A DNA stretch of 64,000 bases from Flavobacteriaceae bacterium PS02334 (GTDB lineage: Bacteria > Bacteroidota > Bacteroidia > Flavobacteriales > Flavobacteriaceae): NCBI GenBank assembly GCA_029959295.1, contig JASCOH010000001.1, positions 974,210-1,038,209 on the forward strand. Reading direction: 5' to 3'. The notes beneath the pieces were generated by a model that saw only the letters and a list, made by a program, of their open reading frames with translations, was not told where the DNA came from and did not search any database. Numbering within the stretch: the first letter of the stretch is position 1; each line of letters starts with the position of its first letter. The position numbers and the translations under genes are program-made. Positions 13,001 through 64,000 of the stretch are shown in pieces.

Positions 13001-13145
13001 CTAATTCAAATCTATTTCCAAAACAGTTTGAACATCATTGCCATAATTTCTTTCACTGCTATATTTCCAATCAATCGAATCTCTGACAAAACCCCTTTCA
13101 ACAGGATTATGATCTAATTTATTAGCTCTCATCCAAATTTTATGA
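13001..13145 (-). pseudogene. C-terminal remnant of an IS200-like / RAYT (Y1) transposase
   Basis: The minus strand reads ...WMRANKLDHNPVERGFVRD, then SIDWKYSSERNYGNDVQTVL, then EIDLN and a stop at 13001. The motif HNPVERGFV followed by WKYSSxRNY is the conserved C-terminal end of REP-associated tyrosine (Y1) transposases. The catalytic HUH motif and Tyr are absent: upstream the frame dissolves into the 21-bp repeat array starting at 13147. No start codon or promoter. A decayed transposase end. Confidence 0.75.
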
Positions 13146-13146
13146 G

Positions 13147-13497
13147 TCCTCAACCGAATTTAGTTAGTCATCAACCGAACTTTATTAGTCTAAAAGTAAA
13201 TAAAGTTAGTAAGGATGTATATTTAATTAGTCCAAAAGTATATTAAGTCAGTCTAAACGTGTATTAAATCAGTCCAGACGATAATTAAATTAGTCTAAAA
13301 GTATATTAAGTTAATCCAAACGTGTATTAAATCAGTCCAGACAATAATTAAATTAGTCTAAAAGTATATTAAGTTAGTCCAAACGTGTATTAAATCAGTC
13401 CAGACGATAATTAAATTAGTCTAAACGTATATTTAATTAGTCCAACAGTGAATTTAGTTAGTCCTAATGATAATAAAGTTAGTCCTAAAGGTTAATC
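13147..13497. repeat. Tandem array of 17 imperfect 21-bp repeats
   Basis: Units begin with GTC(C/T) and end TTA or TCA; nearly all are exactly 21 bp (the third is 20). Typical units are GTCTAAAAGTATATTAAGTT-A and GTCCAAACGTGTATTAAATC-A. From about 13251 to 13419 a higher-order 63-bp unit (three different 21-mers) is repeated with few changes. All six frames contain stops, so it is not coding. Twenty-one bp is two turns of B-DNA, so every unit presents the same face. It abuts the transposase remnant. Confidence 0.9.
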
Positions 13498-13576
13498 TCT
13501 ATTAGAATAAGACATTCATTAATTACAAATCCTCAAAAAATGGCCCTCTCAGCAAAGTAAAATCGGACTTTAAAAC

Positions 13577-20353: not shown

Positions 20354-20405
20354 AGGTAGAGATTATGAATTCAGGTCATATCCTCCGATAATCTATTATC
20401 TACCT
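20354..20405 (-). ncRNA. Structured leader of rpsD, candidate S4 autoregulatory RNA
   Basis: In the mRNA, AGGTAG-(ATAAT bulge)-AGATTAT pairs with ATAATCT-CTACCT, 13 bp in two perfect blocks (20405-20388 with 20366-20354). The apical loop contains a small AGG/CCT pairing. It lies between rpsK and rpsD, 18 nt before the S4 start codon. I recall a proposed S4 leader in Bacteroidia; whether this is that motif is not checked. Confidence 0.5.
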
Positions 20406-44229: not shown

Positions 44230-44328
44230 GAGCTAGCCCCGATTGCAGCGGAAATCCTTTTGCCTCATCCCGAAACTTCGGGATCGAGGCAAAAGATTGG
44301 AGCGGAAAGCGGGACTGAAGCCTCGGAA
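44230..44328 (+). ncRNA. Structured intergenic element resembling the Flavo-1 RNA motif
   Basis: A near-perfect 18-bp stem joins CTTTTGCCTCATCCCGAA (44257-44274) with TTCGGGAT-GAGGCAAAAG (44277-44295, one bulged C). On both sides lie AGCCCCGATTGCAGCGGAAA and GATTGGAGCGGAAAGCGGGA, where CCCG and CGGG can close an outer helix. This organisation is what I remember of the flavobacterial Flavo-1 motif; not checked. It sits between the divergent rhomboid and rarA genes. Function unknown. Confidence 0.55.
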
Positions 44329-57914: not shown

Positions 57915-59660
57915 TTAAGCGATAATAATCGAATCACGTTTTAAATAAGAAATGAATTTTGACGGCGCAATTCCGGTTCTCTGCACAAAAGCACGATTGA
58001 AAACTGCATGCGAAGCAAAACCGCATTCTTCAGCAAGATAGGCAATTTTATAGCTGGAATATTCGGGTTGATTTTTTAGCTTCAAGATAATATAATCTAT
58101 CCGCAGGTCGTTGACATAACCATTAAAATTATTGTTTTTATATTTTTTTATAGCTTCAGAAAGGTAGCGTACATTGGTATTAAAATCTATCGCCATGCTG
58201 CTCACTGAAACTTCTGGCGAGAGAAATTTCAGCTTCCGTTCAAAGCTGTCAAAACGCTTTAGGATATTTTTCTCAGCTTCATCGCTCATGGCAGAAGTCA
58301 CATTTTTTATTGCCGGGATTGGCTTTTCGGCGACGTTTTCTTTTTCTTCTATGATTTCTTCTGCTTCCGGCAATTCTTTTTGTGTGGCTTCCTGCTGGTC
58401 AAGTCTTGCCATCACTGCTTGGAATTTTTTCTTGTCATGCTTGCCCTTTATCATTGCCCCAATGATTACTGCAGTGGCGAGCAAACCTGCCAAAATACCC
58501 AATAGGGCATAGCGATTTGCTGTTTTATTCTTGTGGGAGAGTTCTTTATTCATAGGGTCTATGACATCTATTTGATAAAGCTTTGCCATAAAATCGGCTT
58601 TGGCGGCATAGTTTGTTTTTTGAGAACCTACCAAATATTTTTTAGAATAGAATGCTACGGCTTTTTCATCTCCCAATTTTTCGGCATTTTGCGAGGCCAG
58701 ATGATAGAGCTCCAGTTCATAGTTAAGGGAAGATTGCATTACAACTTTATTGGCTAATGCCTGCTCGCAATAGGCCAGCGATTTGGCATATTCACCTTTC
58801 TTGTTATAGCATACGGCCAAATAATAAAGCGACTGGTAGGTGTCTATTTTTGAACCCTTGATATATTTCTCTTGAGATGCCGCAATTTTGGCGATGGCAT
58901 CATCATACTGGCCTCGCAAGATGAAATAAAAAGTTTCTTGATACCAGATGCCAAACATATCATAGATGCCTTTTTTTTCCAGCTGCCTTACTTGTTTGAT
59001 ATAATAAGCAGCCGAATCGAGTTTCTTTTGATAGTTATAATTGGTTATTAGTTCTCCCGCATAAAATCCTTTATTTTTCAACAGCTTAGCAATTGTTTCT
59101 TTTTCTTCATTGGGATGCGAGGCTATATAGCGCTCTATTTTTTCTATGTCTTTTCTATATGTTTTTGCTTCCTTTTTAAAATCGCCCATTAATCCATAAG
59201 CAATAGCATAAATATTACCGTGTCTCAGTGATTCCATTTCTGTTCGTTGAGTACTATATTTTTTAATTTGCTCGATGCAGTCTAGTGCCTGTTGGTTTTT
59301 ATTCATCATTACATACAGGATTGCCATCACATTATGGCTCTCTATTATATAATGCGTATTATGGCTTCTTTTGGCATGCATCAAGCTTTTTTTTAGGTTT
59401 TCAATGGCTTTATCCAAATCAATTTTAATAACACCGTAATACATATCGCCCATATTGCAATAAGCCATTGCTTTTATAGAATCATGGGGGTTTCGGCTGA
59501 TGATTTCTTCACAATAAATTTTTATTCGCGGGTCCAAATTCGCATTTGCTTGGTCCGTTTTATCGATAAGCTGTTTTACAGTATATTTTGCCAGCGAGTC
59601 TTTTTGGGCTGTGGCACTAAAGGCGATTAGTAAAAAAAGAATAAAATAAAGCTTTTTCAT
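57915..59660 (-). CDS. Membrane one-component regulator: TPR sensor + TM + AraC-type HTH (paralogue 3, first in operon)
   Basis: 581 residues. Signal peptide MKKLYFILFLLIAFSATAQ, periplasmic TPR region with LDRAI-like repeats (DLDKAIENLKKSLMHAKRSH), helix LGILAGLLATAVIIGAMIKG and a cytoplasmic HTH (VRYLSEAIKKYKNNNFNGYV, AYLAEECGFASHAVFNRAFV). Its linker (QQEATQKELPEAEEIIEEKE) is identical to that of paralogue 1 rather than the adjacent paralogue 2. Transcription reads 59660 to 54386. A 22-bp repeat array lies 350-550 bp upstream. No perfect TAnnTTTG box was found before it. Confidence 0.88.
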   Translation of the reverse strand: MKKLYFILFLLIAFSATAQKDSLAKYTVKQLIDKTDQANANLDPRIKIYCEEIISRNPHDSIKAMAYCNMGDMYYGVIKIDLDKAIENLKKSLMHAKRSHNTHYIIESHNVMAILYVMMNKNQQALDCIEQIKKYSTQRTEMESLRHGNIYAIAYGLMGDFKKEAKTYRKDIEKIERYIASHPNEEKETIAKLLKNKGFYAGELITNYNYQKKLDSAAYYIKQVRQLEKKGIYDMFGIWYQETFYFILRGQYDDAIAKIAASQEKYIKGSKIDTYQSLYYLAVCYNKKGEYAKSLAYCEQALANKVVMQSSLNYELELYHLASQNAEKLGDEKAVAFYSKKYLVGSQKTNYAAKADFMAKLYQIDVIDPMNKELSHKNKTANRYALLGILAGLLATAVIIGAMIKGKHDKKKFQAVMARLDQQEATQKELPEAEEIIEEKENVAEKPIPAIKNVTSAMSDEAEKNILKRFDSFERKLKFLSPEVSVSSMAIDFNTNVRYLSEAIKKYKNNNFNGYVNDLRIDYIILKLKNQPEYSSYKIAYLAEECGFASHAVFNRAFVQRTGIAPSKFISYLKRDSIIIA

Positions 59661-59800: not shown

Positions 59801-59836
59801 AAAAAATCTCCCTGCATTTTAATGCAAATGCAGGGA
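59801..59836 (-). terminator. Hairpin terminator
   Basis: TCCCTGCATTT (59809-59819) and AAATGCAGGGA (59826-59836) form a perfect 11-bp stem with a 6-nt loop, followed on the minus strand by ATTTTTTATG. It could end a transcript from the gene at 60338-61435 that runs through the repeat array. Confidence 0.65.
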
Positions 59837-59857
59837 AATTAAAATTATAATAGTTAA

Positions 59858-59962: not shown

Positions 59963-59990
59963 TTATGACCAGCATCCTGCTTTTACCTTA

Positions 59991-60011
59991 AGCCCAGCAT
60001 TAGTGCGGGCT
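59991..60011. repeat. GC-rich hairpin bordering the 22-bp array
   Basis: AGCCC-a-GCA pairs with TGC-GGGCT around TTAG (one bulged A). It ends 2 bp before the first repeat unit. No T-run follows on either strand. Confidence 0.5.
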
Positions 60012-60013
60012 AG

Positions 60014-60210
60014 ACCTAACCGTTTGCGTGTGGCGACCTAACCGTTTAGGTCAGATGACCCAACCGCTTGGGTTGTATAGGGTAAAATTTTAGGTCCCTA
60101 GGGGTAACTGGTTGGGTTATATAACCTAACCGGTTGGGTTGTCAGGGGTAACCGGTTAGGTCACCCTACCCAACCGCTTGGGTCATGAAGGGTAAACGGT
60201 TGGGTTGTTT
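60014..60210. repeat. Tandem array of nine 22-bp quasi-palindromic repeats
   Basis: Nine consecutive units of 22 bp (last 21), each a 16-bp core plus a variable 6-bp spacer. The core follows (A/G)(C/G)(C/G)(T/C)AAccGnTT(A/G)GGT. Two kinds are perfect dyads: ACCTAACCGTTTAGGT (60036) and ACCCAACCGCTTGGGT (60058, 60168). The T-A and C-G changes occur together on both arms. Not coding in any frame of useful length. Confidence 0.92.
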
Positions 60211-60337
60211 CAAGCTTTTGTTTCATAAAAGCTAAGCGCTAAAACATTCCAGACTTGAATTATTCAAATTAATTGCGGGTATTATGCCACTAGCTTCACA
60301 ATTAGAATGCTTGCGCGAGTGGCATAATATTGACTAT

Positions 60338-61435
60338 TTAATAGGTCACTTTAACTTGCGTGACCGATTGTTGGTCTCCCGCACTTGTAGTTCCTGTTTC
60401 GGTCAGCTTGAAGGTTGTGCTTGTTGTGCCTGCGGCCGCTACGAAAGTAAACGTGGTCACGTATCCTGCACTATTGGTTCCATTGCCCGTATTGCGCGTT
60501 GCAATTGCCGTGCCGCTTGTAGCCGTGCCACCATAGACGTTAATCTGAGTCTGGGTATGTGTGCCATAACCATCGGTACCAGACAAACCATTGTGGTTGG
60601 TAACCATCCTAACTGTGTAAGTTCTGCCGGCAACGGTTGCTACTGTTTTGTAAGCCATACCGCTTCCTATGGTACTATTGCTGCAGTTGTCACCGCTAAG
60701 GTAACAGGCAGGCTGCACGCCCGGATCACAAACCTTTGCAGACTGCCACGATCCGCTGAGTACCCATCCTCCACCAGAAACAAGGGTGCAATTAAAACCA
60801 TTGTTATCAAACAGTATGGCCACGCCAACAGTTATAGTCATCGTACAGCTGCGTCCGGCAAAGCTGATGGCAAACGAAGCTGTTCCTGAGCCTGAAGGCG
60901 TTCCGGTAATGTCATAGACTAAATTGCCCGAACCGCTGGCGAGCGTTCCTGCACGAAGTGTAGCCGTAAGCCCAGTAACACCAGTAGAAGCAGTGCCTGC
61001 ATCGGCAGGATAACTTCCGCCGTTTCCACCGGTGTAAGGAACCGTTTGGCTTACGCCACTTGCCACAGTCTGTGATGTAAGAGTGCCAGTCAGCACGCCC
61101 GTAGCACAGTTAATGCTAGAAACAGCAGGAGTTACACACGTTTTATCAGCACCTGCATCAGTCACAAAATCAATAGATTTAGTAGCATCAGCAAAGCTTA
61201 CCGAGCCATTGCCTGTGCCAAAATTTACATTGTTTGTACTCCAAGTTGTATTTTGCACGATGGCAACACCGGTATTGATCGTTTTGGTGTCCGTCGTAAC
61301 GTTAAAGATACTCGTCGGATTTCCCCAAGTAGCACAATTGTCCCAATTCCCTGAGGTTGTCGCGGTGTTCTGGGCCACTGCAGGCAGGCAGGCCAGCAAT
61401 AGTAACAAAACAGAATGGGTTATTATTTTTTTCAT
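60338..61435 (-). CDS. Secreted low-complexity beta-rich protein
   Basis: 365 residues. A Sec signal peptide (MKKIITHSVLLLLLACLPAVAQ) precedes GNWDNCATWGNPTSIFNV-like and Thr/Gly/Ala-rich sequence. One copy of a module I know from flavobacterial surface proteins is present: VSQTVPYTGGNGGSYPADAG, then GVTGLTATLRAGTLASGSGN and CTMTITVGVA. No T9SS sorting domain is seen, and the end VTQVKVTY has no anchor. GC is clearly above its surroundings. Probably an extracellular or adhesin-like protein; function unknown. A plus-strand Cys-rich frame over the same DNA is a shadow. Confidence 0.75.
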   Translation of the reverse strand: MKKIITHSVLLLLLACLPAVAQNTATTSGNWDNCATWGNPTSIFNVTTDTKTINTGVAIVQNTTWSTNNVNFGTGNGSVSFADATKSIDFVTDAGADKTCVTPAVSSINCATGVLTGTLTSQTVASGVSQTVPYTGGNGGSYPADAGTASTGVTGLTATLRAGTLASGSGNLVYDITGTPSGSGTASFAISFAGRSCTMTITVGVAILFDNNGFNCTLVSGGGWVLSGSWQSAKVCDPGVQPACYLSGDNCSNSTIGSGMAYKTVATVAGRTYTVRMVTNHNGLSGTDGYGTHTQTQINVYGGTATSGTAIATRNTGNGTNSAGYVTTFTFVAAAGTTSTTFKLTETGTTSAGDQQSVTQVKVTY

Positions 61436-61509: not shown

Positions 61510-62373
61510 TTATTTCTTAAGTTTTTCCATTTCTGCTTTAAGCTCATTAATTTGAGCCTGCTGTGCTTTGATAGCTTCAATCAATGCAGGAACCAACTCT
61601 GTATAGCTAACCGCTTTAAAACCTTGATCATTAGTGCTAACCGCTTCTGGAAATTGTTTTTCTACTTCTTGAGCGATAACCCCCATATCATGTCCATTTC
61701 CTAAAGTCTGTCCTGGAAAATCTTTCGCTTCTTTCCAATCATATGTATAGCCACCTAATTGCATTACTTTTTCCAAAGCGTTTTGAATCGGCTTGATGTT
61801 CTTTTTGAATCTAGAGTCAGAAGGTCCTTGGATTTTAGTAGCCGTGATGATTCCGTTTACGTGAAGTGTCGTTGAAGGCGTAGCGGTACCGATACCTACA
61901 TTGCCATTTTCAAGTACTACGAAACGACCATTGCTTACGTTTGGAGCATCGATACCAAAAATACCAGCACCTGTTTGCGTAAATGCTTGTGAACCAGCAA
62001 TAGTATTCAAGATGAATTTACCAGTTGTTGCATTGAACTGAAGATTCTTGTCAGCCATGTTCACGGAGCGATTACTGGTAAGCGCTCCATTGCTGTTGTA
62101 AATGTTGGTGCTTGTTCCTGAGTCTTTCCAAGCGGTACCGTCAAAGAACCATATGGTATTCGAGGTAGTATCAAAAACCTGTAGACCTGCCACAGGAGAT
62201 ACAATTGCTGTTCTTTCAGCAGTTAACATTCGTGGCATCAAGAAACCTTTAGTTGTGCTGGTGATATCTAGCATTGATGAGGCAACAGGCGTTTTTGTAC
62301 CAATACCTACTTGTGCGTTGGCTACTAAGCTCGTTATTAAAAGAACTACTAATGCGTAAAATTGTCTTTTCAT
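61510..62373 (-). CDS. Secreted tail-fibre-like protein with C-terminal endosialidase-type chaperone domain
   Basis: 287 residues. Signal peptide MKRQFYALVVLLITSLVANAQ, then VGIGTKTPVASSMLDITST and a repeated segment with SVNMADKNLQFN and FVVLENGNVGIGTATPSTTL. The C-terminal 95 residues (SRFKKNIKPIQNALEKVMQL, YTYDWKEA, GVIAQEVEKQFPEAVSTND) form an S74-type intramolecular chaperone, which in phage fibres trimerises and then cleaves itself off at a Ser-Asp pair (here SDSRFKKN). It ends in a Lys/Glu coiled coil. It shares a 72-residue block with the next gene. Confidence 0.88.
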   Translation of the reverse strand: MKRQFYALVVLLITSLVANAQVGIGTKTPVASSMLDITSTTKGFLMPRMLTAERTAIVSPVAGLQVFDTTSNTIWFFDGTAWKDSGTSTNIYNSNGALTSNRSVNMADKNLQFNATTGKFILNTIAGSQAFTQTGAGIFGIDAPNVSNGRFVVLENGNVGIGTATPSTTLHVNGIITATKIQGPSDSRFKKNIKPIQNALEKVMQLGGYTYDWKEAKDFPGQTLGNGHDMGVIAQEVEKQFPEAVSTNDQGFKAVSYTELVPALIEAIKAQQAQINELKAEMEKLKK

Positions 62374-62446
62374 GGTATAAAAAATTTAATAATTGTTTGG
62401 ATTTTATTTTAGAAACTCGAAACCTATTTTGGAAGGTTTCAAGTTT

Positions 62447-62480
62447 TTAAAAAATCCCCACATTACTACAACATGGGGAT
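62447..62480 (-). terminator. Terminator of the long tail-fibre-like gene
   Basis: ATCCCCA (62454-62460) and TGGGGAT (62474-62480) pair; on the minus strand six T follow. It lies about 115 bp past the stop codon of the gene at 62595-64000, in an AT-rich stretch with no other gene. Confidence 0.65.
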
Positions 62481-62594
62481 ATAAAAAAATTTAAAAGAGT
62501 TTAATCGGTAATATTAATCCACTATATATATTTATTAATTCAGTAACCGTCAAGGTACTTTTGCACTTGTGGCAGTACCGTCTAATTGTTTTAA

Positions 62595-64000
62595 TTATAG
62601 TGCGCAATCTCCAGTTACATAAGCGTTTCCGGGAGTATCAACGATAACACCAATAGCTGAGTTTTTCACTCTGGCAAGTGAACCGCCACCTGATGGATAG
62701 TTTACTACAGTTCCAGATCCAGCAACAACGTTTACTCTACCAGCCCCCTTTTGGATAATCTCACAGTAAAATCCTGCAGGAAGTGTAGCTGGAACAGTAA
62801 TAGAAATAGTACCGCTGGCATTGGTTGAGGTGATAATTTTACCAAGGTCGCTTGCTTGTAATGTGTAGGCAACTGCTGTAGCATATACTCCAGCATTTGT
62901 TAATACACCGCCTGTTGAGTTTACCACATAAGGAGCTGCTGTTGTTCCAGAACCTGTAATGGTTACATTGGTTCCGGCAGTTACTTTAGTTTCAGAACCA
63001 TCAGCAGCTGCTGCAGTAGCGTTCACGATGTATGGTGAAGCTGTTGTTCCAGAACCTGTAACGGTTGTATTTGTCCCTGCTTGCACTTTAGTTTCAGATC
63101 CGTCAGCTGTTGATGCTGCAGTTGCCCAAGTAGCCAAACCGTTAGCGTCAGAAGTCAAAACTTTTCCTGCACCTTGCGTACCGTCAGCAATCTTTACTGT
63201 ACCTGCAACGTCTAGTCTTGCATTCGGATTTCTTTGACCGATACCCACATTTCCGTTTTCAAGCACTACAAAACGTCCATTGCTTACGTTAGGGGCATCG
63301 ATACCAAAAATACCAGCGCCAGTTTGCGTAAATGCTTGCGTACCTGTTGCTGTATTAATTACAAACGTACCCGTTGTAGAATTAAACTGAAGATTCTTGT
63401 CATTCATATTTACCGAACGTCCGCTAGTAAGCGTACCATTACTAGTATATAAATTTGAAGCATCTACCACATAAGGTGCAGCCGTAGTTCCAGAACCTGT
63501 AACGGTTGTGTTGGTTCCTGCCTGTACTTTAGTTTCAGAACCATCACCTGTAGAACCTGCAGCCACTGTCTGCCAGCTAGCCAAACCGTTGGCATCTGAA
63601 GTCAGTACTTTTCCTGCAGCCTGAGAGCCGTCAGTGATTTTTATCGTACCGTTAACATCTAGTTTTGCGCCAGGGGTTGTTGTTCCAATACCCACGTTAC
63701 CAGCGTTTTGCACTAAAAATCTAGTTGTTGCGCCGCCGCCGCCTGATGTTTTAACAACAAAGTCAGCAGCGCCTTCGTTGGCTGAACCATTCACATATTC
63801 TGCACCGATGGCTATCGGATAAGAGCCATTAATGAAGTTAGGATTAAAACCAATAAGCGCCTGCTGTCCCACTGCTGCCGTGCCCGATGCACCGCCAATG
63901 CGCAGCATGCTATTTGCAGTTGTGCTCAAAGGCCCTGTGATTTGCATAGGAAGCGCGTTGTTGCTCGTAAAAAATGTAGATCCTGAACCCCCTGAAAAGG
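62595..64000 (-). CDS. Tail-fibre-like repeat protein (5' end outside the window)
   Basis: At least 468 residues; an ATG at 63947 exists but the same open frame continues to the window edge (SGGSGSTFFTSNNALPMQIT), so the start lies beyond 64000. Repeats dominate: three copies of DGSETKVQAGTNTTVTGSGT type, two of GxxxAGKVLTSDANGLA(S/T)W, and the FVVLENGNVGIG block shared with the downstream gene. The C-terminus (YCEIIQKGAGRVNVVAGSGT, ending VTGDCAL) is not an S74 chaperone. Likely an extracellular fibre or adhesin. No T9SS sorting signal is visible in the part seen. Confidence 0.8.
   Translation of the reverse strand, partial: FSGGSGSTFFTSNNALPMQITGPLSTTANSMLRIGGASGTAAVGQQALIGFNPNFINGSYPIAIGAEYVNGSANEGAADFVVKTSGGGGATTRFLVQNAGNVGIGTTTPGAKLDVNGTIKITDGSQAAGKVLTSDANGLASWQTVAAGSTGDGSETKVQAGTNTTVTGSGTTAAPYVVDASNLYTSNGTLTSGRSVNMNDKNLQFNSTTGTFVINTATGTQAFTQTGAGIFGIDAPNVSNGRFVVLENGNVGIGQRNPNARLDVAGTVKIADGTQGAGKVLTSDANGLATWATAASTADGSETKVQAGTNTTVTGSGTTASPYIVNATAAAADGSETKVTAGTNVTITGSGTTAAPYVVNSTGGVLTNAGVYATAVAYTLQASDLGKIITSTNASGTISITVPATLPAGFYCEIIQKGAGRVNVVAGSGTVVNYPSGGGSLARVKNSAIGVIVDTPGNAYVTGDCAL

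Follow-up and report, generated by a model that had tools for sequence, protein, structure and literature searches.

A tandem array of nine units in the window, that is, the whole 64,000-nucleotide stretch that was analysed (contig C11 of the 4.6-Mb genome G000), belonged to a group of arrays that share the grammar RSSYAA-N4-TTRSSY at a step of 21 or 22 bp and are found here and there among the genomes of the genus as well as in other parts of the phylum. The new finding is that a family of uncharacterised proteins, each about 160 residues long, is linked to 21/22-bp arrays of many sequences, both in the genus and across the phylum. We favour the reading that the array may be a phased platform for a protein, to which we give a probability of roughly 45%. 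Because the family is linked to arrays across the phylum, the array and the linked protein probably belong to one system.

The nine 16-nt cores of the window array started at 60014, 60036, and so on to 60190, with a constant 22-bp step and spacers of 6 nt each. This layout, which the initial annotation had described, was confirmed and lay far beyond chance in shuffles and autocorrelation. The autocorrelation at lag 22 was 0.56, compared with 0.13-0.34 at the remaining lags from 15 to 30. The self-complementarity of the cores was 98 of 144, versus 35 +/- 7 with a maximum of 60 in 2000 mononucleotide shuffles, and the register of the array gave the top self-complementarity score across the 64-kb window. 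A consensus scan with up to three mismatches returned 12 matches (6 sites on both strands), every one inside the array, where 0.8 were expected; TRF reported only 60013-60073 here. The cores were dyad-like, but the units differed from one another and no core was a perfect palindrome over 16 bp, the best reaching 14/16 (units 2, 3, 6, and 8). The signal YAA-N4-TTR was present in all nine units, and the centres were CCGG-like in most of them and AATT in unit 4. The array was non-coding, since the 22-bp step is not a multiple of three and no ORF of at least 80 aa overlapped 60014-60211. In each of the genomes G061 and G278, one array had a leader ending in GCGCTAG. Nothing near the array matched a Bacteroidetes promoter motif, and the 365-aa protein on its right side had no Pfam family over the cut-off. 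Elsewhere in the window, Rfam matched a Flavo-1 RNA (44231-44320, plus strand) and an S4-Flavobacteria ribosomal leader (20361-20393, minus strand).

Table 1. Features of the window at and around the nine-unit array.
Feature	Position	Strand	Remarks
First of three tandem TPR + AraC-type HTH (HTH_18) genes	57915..59660	-	354 bp between its start codon and the array; not counted as part of the element
Terminator-like stem, 15 pairs, between the array and the AraC-type gene	59805..59840	-	consensus match; 0.7 expected by chance
Homology block common to the second G000 array (array and short flanks)	59977..60256	+	86% over 283 columns
Leader stem-loop GCCC...GGGC directly before unit 1	59992..60010	+	read from sequence; common to the second array
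Tandem array, 9 units (16-nt core + 6-nt spacer, 22-bp step)	60014..60211	+	grammar RSSYAA-N4-TTRSSY
Tail stem-loop AGCTTTT...AAAAGCT directly after unit 9	60213..60233	+	read from sequence; largely common to the second array
Gene, 365-aa protein with signal-peptide-like start	60338..61435	-	stop codon toward the array, 133 bp off

The initial annotation had further held that the arms covary, so that symmetry is conserved rather than sequence, and this claim did not hold, either in the window or in related arrays. The two matched arm forms on which it was built do occur, ACCTAA/TTAGGT once (unit 2) and ACCCAA/TTGGGT twice (units 3 and 8), but GGGTAA was paired with TTRGGT in units 4, 5, 7, and 9, and unit 1 ended in GCGT. 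In the window, 37 of 54 arm positions were complementary, compared with 36.6 when the right arms were dealt randomly (P 0.67). Across arrays, the complementarity of 220 units was 0.682 versus 0.681 (z 0.08); these units came from 26 of 37 arrays, the other eleven having been set aside in advance because they were of other dialects or fitted poorly (L055, L056, L057, L096, L099, two of L100, L101, L102, L103, and L105). No arm covariation appeared at unit offsets from -4 to +4 with 17 of 18 regions used, and in the 21 covariation tests of L-R, L-L, and R-R type no L-R signal emerged; z was 2.0 and 2.5 in two of the L-L tests, which was not counted as signal. The position-wise tables contained no compensatory excess in the arms, and only two centre pairs lay above independence in the pooled table, which mixes AATT- and CCGG-centred genomes. 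A candidate rule that both arms are never off-type (0 G-C cells, pooled P 0.001) vanished under the within-array null (4 versus 3.97), and the apparent absence of doubly off-type units was due to strand polarity. The off-class arms of GGGT type stood on one side in 32 of 33 cases versus 24 expected, in the 11 of the 26 arrays with at least two such units, and in 26 of 27 when the copies L008 and L049 were removed. The features that are kept are the class RSSYAA-N4-TTRSSY and a strand polarity.

Comparison of homologous arrays gave evidence that the cores, unlike the spacers, are under selection after duplication. The window array and its copy at locus L008 differed at 3 of 108 positions in the arms and AA/TT, 4 of 36 in the centres, and 17 of 48 in the spacers (P 1e-7 for arms and AA/TT versus spacers). 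Five other homologous pairs, which are not independent because two arrays were used twice, gave pooled differences of 1/172 in AA/TT, 41/344 in arms, 24/172 in centres, and 50/203 in spacers (AA/TT versus spacers, P 6e-14). Because AA and TT are set in the grammar with which arrays were found, how often they occur is no evidence; the homologous-array comparisons were made with zero skipped units. C-to-G changes were absent from the arms of the window pair but rare in its spacers as well (1/17), so selection on single arm letters cannot be read from this pair.

Genome G000 contained two further arrays of the same grammar. The second (C11:403166-403375, locus L008) was 88% identical to the window array with equal unit order and lay 95 bp from a gene of the linked family; the window array is a copy of it without the gene. 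The third (C22:193001-193218) had about 10 units, one of which can be read as a core longer by one base and a spacer shorter by one base with the 22-bp step intact. Another intergenic array in the window (13122-13510) had an exact 21-bp step, at least 14 units, and a different sequence, and a relative of it was found on contig C68 of G000 (L195). With the window array as the query, 4 of 299 genus genomes matched, G000 included; with a AAAATTTT-centred array, 18 of 398 matched, G000 not among them, and of these the loci of G122, G134, G161, and G362 were left out of the fetched set. We parsed 37 arrays in 34 of 35 scanned loci, L104 being without an array. With a parser that permitted steps of 20-23 and 42-44, the 293 steps of these arrays comprised 178 of 21, 103 of 22, nine of 42, one of 44, and two of 20. 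ORFs of at least 70 aa overlapped four strict 21-bp arrays, L055, L056, L100, and L101 (G099 and G179), which are open as reading frames of seven-residue repeats.

Beyond the genus, a sequence-only model was built from 29 segments of three units each, and 9 of 296 phylum genomes matched it. On reading of these matches, arrays were recognised in G539 (same class, other family) and G690 (same order, other family), the array of G401 was doubtful, and G438, G627, and G678 were not array-like. The units of G539, ACCYAA...TTRGGT, closely resembled those of the window. A Chitinophagaceae MAG carried two arrays (L130 and L131), in which ACGTAAAATTTTACGT-like units pass into AAAGCACGGGG units at a similar step within a single block. 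The centres were CCGG-like in all three G000 arrays, and AATT was commonest in 22 of 23 arrays of other genomes, with AAGT in L090; this contrast is partly one of selection, because the 23 arrays came mainly from AATT-centred queries. No AATT array was found in G000 with an AATT array and the model as queries, and no CCGG-centred array was found elsewhere with the window array and its copy (299 and 60 genomes), whereas the wider grammar was common to several genera. Genome-specific centres are thus weakly supported, since two of the three G000 arrays are copies, the queries were biased to AATT, and G099 has two dialects in one genome.

The gaps that hold the 37 arrays were convergent in 12 cases, tandem in 15, and divergent in 7, with 3 not classed, according to mechanical ORFs that were non-overlapping by construction of the gap table. 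Several loci with arrays were common to different genomes: a radical-SAM, hemN-like gene (Pfam) in four genomes with neighbours 84-95% identical, a linked-family locus in three (G000, G010, and G061; neighbours 61-75% identical), and four or five further loci in two genomes each (82-99%). ABC-transporter and copper-ATPase loci were dropped as common loci because their neighbours were just 25% and 30% identical. The order of units was kept at four same-locus pairs, with mean similarities of 12.9, 12.5, 11.3, and 10.9 versus at most 9.5 for unrelated arrays in 650 comparisons; as z-scores these pairs reached 4.9, 6.5, 4.0, and 3.1, and unrelated pairs reached 4.7, overlapping two of them. The neighbour proteins of two of the four pairs were mostly 98-99% identical, so these genomes are close. 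At the locus common to G000, G010, and G061 the arrays could not be aligned unit by unit (z <1.5). Equal unit order was also found at unrelated loci within a genome (L045, L046, L047, and L049), which indicates that blocks get copied; L045, L046, and L049 were 82-83% identical over 202-233 bp, and the homology stopped within about 30 bp of the array. At one locus the number of units differed between two genomes (L053 and L134). Peptidase_S74 (endosialidase-chaperone) surface genes were duplicated between the window (61510-63998) and L008 (1-3565), with DNA pieces about 79-91% identical, and each of the two gene clusters adjoined one array copy. Since the second G000 array lies beside surface genes like those of the window, the copy may stem from a larger duplication.

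The linked family was recognised from the gene at L008:5462-5983, whose relatives adjoin arrays in G010 and G061. With the G010 protein as the query, the family was found in 24 of 199 genus genomes at 30 loci. A TRF array, counted if its period was 19-24 or the double or triple of this, lay within 1 kb at 28 of the 30 loci; of 23 enolase loci taken from these genomes for comparison, 2 had one (P 2e-10). Raising the TRF score to 70 gave 24/30 versus 2/23, and to 100 gave 19/30 versus 2/23. As the test started from a gene picked for adjoining three arrays, these discovery loci were removed, and 25 of 27 loci still had a TRF array; one of the two loci without one, L140, begins at a contig end with an array remnant. 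Arrays accompanied 2 of 8 Y1-transposase loci. Across the phylum, a profile of 28 members matched 20 of 395 genomes, and 20 of 30 fetched loci, which include the G000 locus again, had a TRF array; at a distance of about 20 kb, 2 of 19 stretches did (P 1e-4). The other 10 loci had none nearby. Among TRF rows of period 10-39 in 60 loci, 63 were at 21, 11 at 22, and at most 5 at any other period. The repeat sequences themselves differed widely among gene loci, so the link is to period and class, not to one sequence. Among the matches listed for 28 genus loci, 18 had arrays on the 3' side of the gene alone and 7 on the 5' side alone; 3 had them on either side at once.

Six genomes of the phylum sample were judged to bear arrays of the window grammar (one of them doubtful), and five of these carried the gene; its distance from the array was 119 bp in G278, 131 bp in G690, and 330 bp in G539. 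Among array-bearing genus genomes, 7 of 12 had the gene, and G016, G069, G108, G122, and G134 gave no match at the threshold applied; in the array-bearing G315 no linked gene was found at E 1e-6. Most arrays in the 35 scanned loci, that of the window included, were not beside the gene. The family loci were L138-L167 and L219-L248, with several gene copies in G539 and other genomes. An alignment of 28 of the 30 family proteins (A3; L161 was incomplete and L162 was left out) contained invariant residues that include W76, D82, R86, and Y122 in the numbering of its first sequence. The mean net charge was -4, and such acidic proteins do not suggest a DNA-binding protein. Pfam and NCBIfam held nothing over cut-off for the family and the PDB no sequence match at E 1; weak single-member matches comprised one in PHROGs and five in PADLOC, where no family matched more than 1 of 28 members (best E 0.005). 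A MobP3 relaxase model matched 8 of 28 members weakly (best E 0.0015), far below its cut-off: the member listed scored 17 bits versus 150.

The initial annotation had suggested the neighbouring AraC-type regulators as the partner of the array, which would then be their operator array. Proximity (354 bp) and a phasing that resembles that of AraC half-sites speak for this, yet a search of related genomes for the core and its neighbours, which found arrays in scattered genomes, turned up a different linked family and no AraC linkage. None of the 34 other-genome arrays had a homologue in its scanned flanks, and among the 229 other ORFs of the 35 scanned loci no homologue of the AraC-type protein was found (best outside match E 0.08). 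The three genes, 77-81% identical, are contiguous or overlapping, so at most one promoter could be served, and the terminator-like stem lies between them and the array. The site-regulator linkage of an operator was absent from the scanned loci, and we regard this role as scarcely probable. Very improbable, too, is intrinsic curvature, where A-tracts in phase would bend the DNA and this bending would itself be functional. With a wedge model, the 23 other-genome arrays of the test set were predicted to be curved (z 4.4 to 37.5 versus shuffles), but those of G000 were weakly curved or straight (path ratios 1.26, 1.18, and 1.05; z 6.1, 2.7, and -0.3) while keeping the period and the arms.

The arrays might instead be a selfish or neutral repeat element, MITE-like and copied round the genome, with the linked gene perhaps as its own factor and no host function. 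The equal-order copies at unrelated loci (L045/L046/L049), the patchy distribution in the genus (18/398 with one query), the varying unit number at one locus, and a gene beside a repeat family, which recalls RAYT genes beside REPs, are all consistent with this account. It is nevertheless unlikely, given that cores are far better conserved than spacers after duplication and that no Y1 transposase was detected at E 0.001 in the array-bearing genomes G061, G278, and G016, a protein found in 24 of 30 genomes. We are more doubtful about a transcribed array whose repeats would function at the RNA level, either by themselves or together with the linked protein, as they do in type III toxin-antitoxin systems, for instance. 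The polarity of the GGGT-type arms and the presence of a small protein gene next to the repeats would suit it, and the repeated-hairpin RNA also proposed in the initial annotation gained some ground from the fold of the plus strand (z -7.3; minus strand -5.0, versus dinucleotide shuffles). When the own arms, centres, and spacers of the window array were permuted, however, the z-score was only -0.4; the two other G000 arrays did beat their permuted versions (z -2.2 and -2.0), but 15 of 17 arrays lay within -1.6 to +1.6 on the plus strand by the same comparison. The compensatory arm changes of a structured RNA were not found, Rfam had no match at the array, arrays stood on either side of the linked gene or, in many cases, nowhere near it, and the PADLOC matches were confined to single members. 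The repeated-hairpin reading is therefore disfavoured, while acidic linked proteins and arrays with a polarity leave room for an RNA partner. The linkage raised the odds of an RNA role and slightly lowered those of the selfish element, of curvature, and of the platform.

Several known systems resemble these arrays in part. REP and BIME elements are dispersed intergenic imperfect palindromes with a RAYT gene beside some copies. The present arrays are likewise dispersed imperfect palindromes with a gene beside some, but their unit is half as long with a fixed step of 21-22, and by Pfam the linked protein does not resemble Y1 transposases. Plasmid iterons and partition sites such as sopC are tandem phased protein sites; the arrays here lie at several chromosomal loci, and neither the window array in a plasmid collection nor the L046 array in phages gave a match. 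Type III toxin-antitoxin systems also place a small protein gene beside a tandem repeat array, whereas the present arrays are mostly 3' of the gene and often without it. The available text of PMC8860590 describes such systems as an endoribonuclease toxin paired with multiple RNA repeats; no toxin family was over cut-off for the linked protein in Pfam or NCBIfam, and PADLOC gave only scattered weak matches. BrickBuilt, a MITE of Porphyromonas gingivalis, is a dispersed intergenic tandem array with a leader, a tail, and predicted long stems, as far as the available part of PMC4596501 goes, but it has a 23-nt unit of another consensus and IS-like terminal inverted repeats, and the window array with its 22-bp step shares neither that unit length nor that consensus.

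The closest counterpart is the class of non-coding constant-size tandem repeats of Subirana and Messeguer. According to the available text of PMC8161180, their units measure 20-21 or 52 nt for Bacillus and 20-23 nt across many groups, their sequences vary and are specific to the species, and they contain a short characteristic signal. The window array appears to fit the 20-23-nt type of this class: it is non-coding, its unit is constant and near 21 nt, the signal is in every unit, its nine units at a step of 22 exceed the minimum of four, and several families of the same size exist in the genome (three arrays of the grammar and the 21-bp family at 13122-13510 and on C68). It departs from the class as presented there in that a dyad-like signal, RSSYAA-N4-TTRSSY, is found again in several genera, a locus can keep its array in different genomes, arms have strand polarity, and one protein family is tied to arrays of many sequences, a link of which that part of the paper makes no mention. 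Its authors proposed a protein that polymerises on the repeats, which favours the platform, or small RNAs, and the 52-nt repeats of Bacillus coagulans were reported as transcribed (PMC8161180, PMC8625621, each in the text available). Among the literature matches listed, none was recognised as describing such arrays in Flavobacterium.

The platform reading would account for the array as follows. Intergenic, non-coding tandem arrays, that of the window being one of several, have a step of two helical turns, and each unit is most likely a loosely specified putative binding site with RSSY half-sites around YAA...TTR. With a step of 21-22 bp, all sites would face the same side of the helix, and copies of the linked protein, or of a partner of it, could line up there next to one another in a patch with a direction; from the fixed phase, the conserved core, the free spacer, the loose half-sites, and the linked protein we infer that protein binding along one helix face fits, and with it a candidate binder, its cooperativity, and a role. 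A role in chromosome architecture or maintenance would fit. Several observations argue against the platform: the linked proteins are acidic and no library names them, the gene gave no match in 5 of 12 array-bearing genus genomes and in G315 at the thresholds applied, 10 of 30 phylum gene loci lack an array by TRF, the linkage would suit an RNA partner equally, and the half-sites are more variable than in most operators. A wider proposal, whose odds the linkage raised and which we put forward tentatively as possible but on balance unlikely, is that the fixed-step arrays and the 160-residue family are two halves of one Bacteroidota system. Alone or together with a partner, the protein would read the arrays of its own genome. 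The two-turn step would be what must be kept, and joint change of reader and array would let the sequence diverge into dialects of each species.

Constant-length repeats of unexplained function have been catalogued in many bacteria, and no partner for them was found in the available parts of the literature examined. The case described here offers a readable grammar, selection on cores with free spacers, strand polarity, and a linked family in several families of the phylum. The linked family makes the puzzle of these repeats a bench question on one small protein, and if arrays and protein are indeed two halves of one system, it would be the first partner gene for constant-size bacterial satellites.
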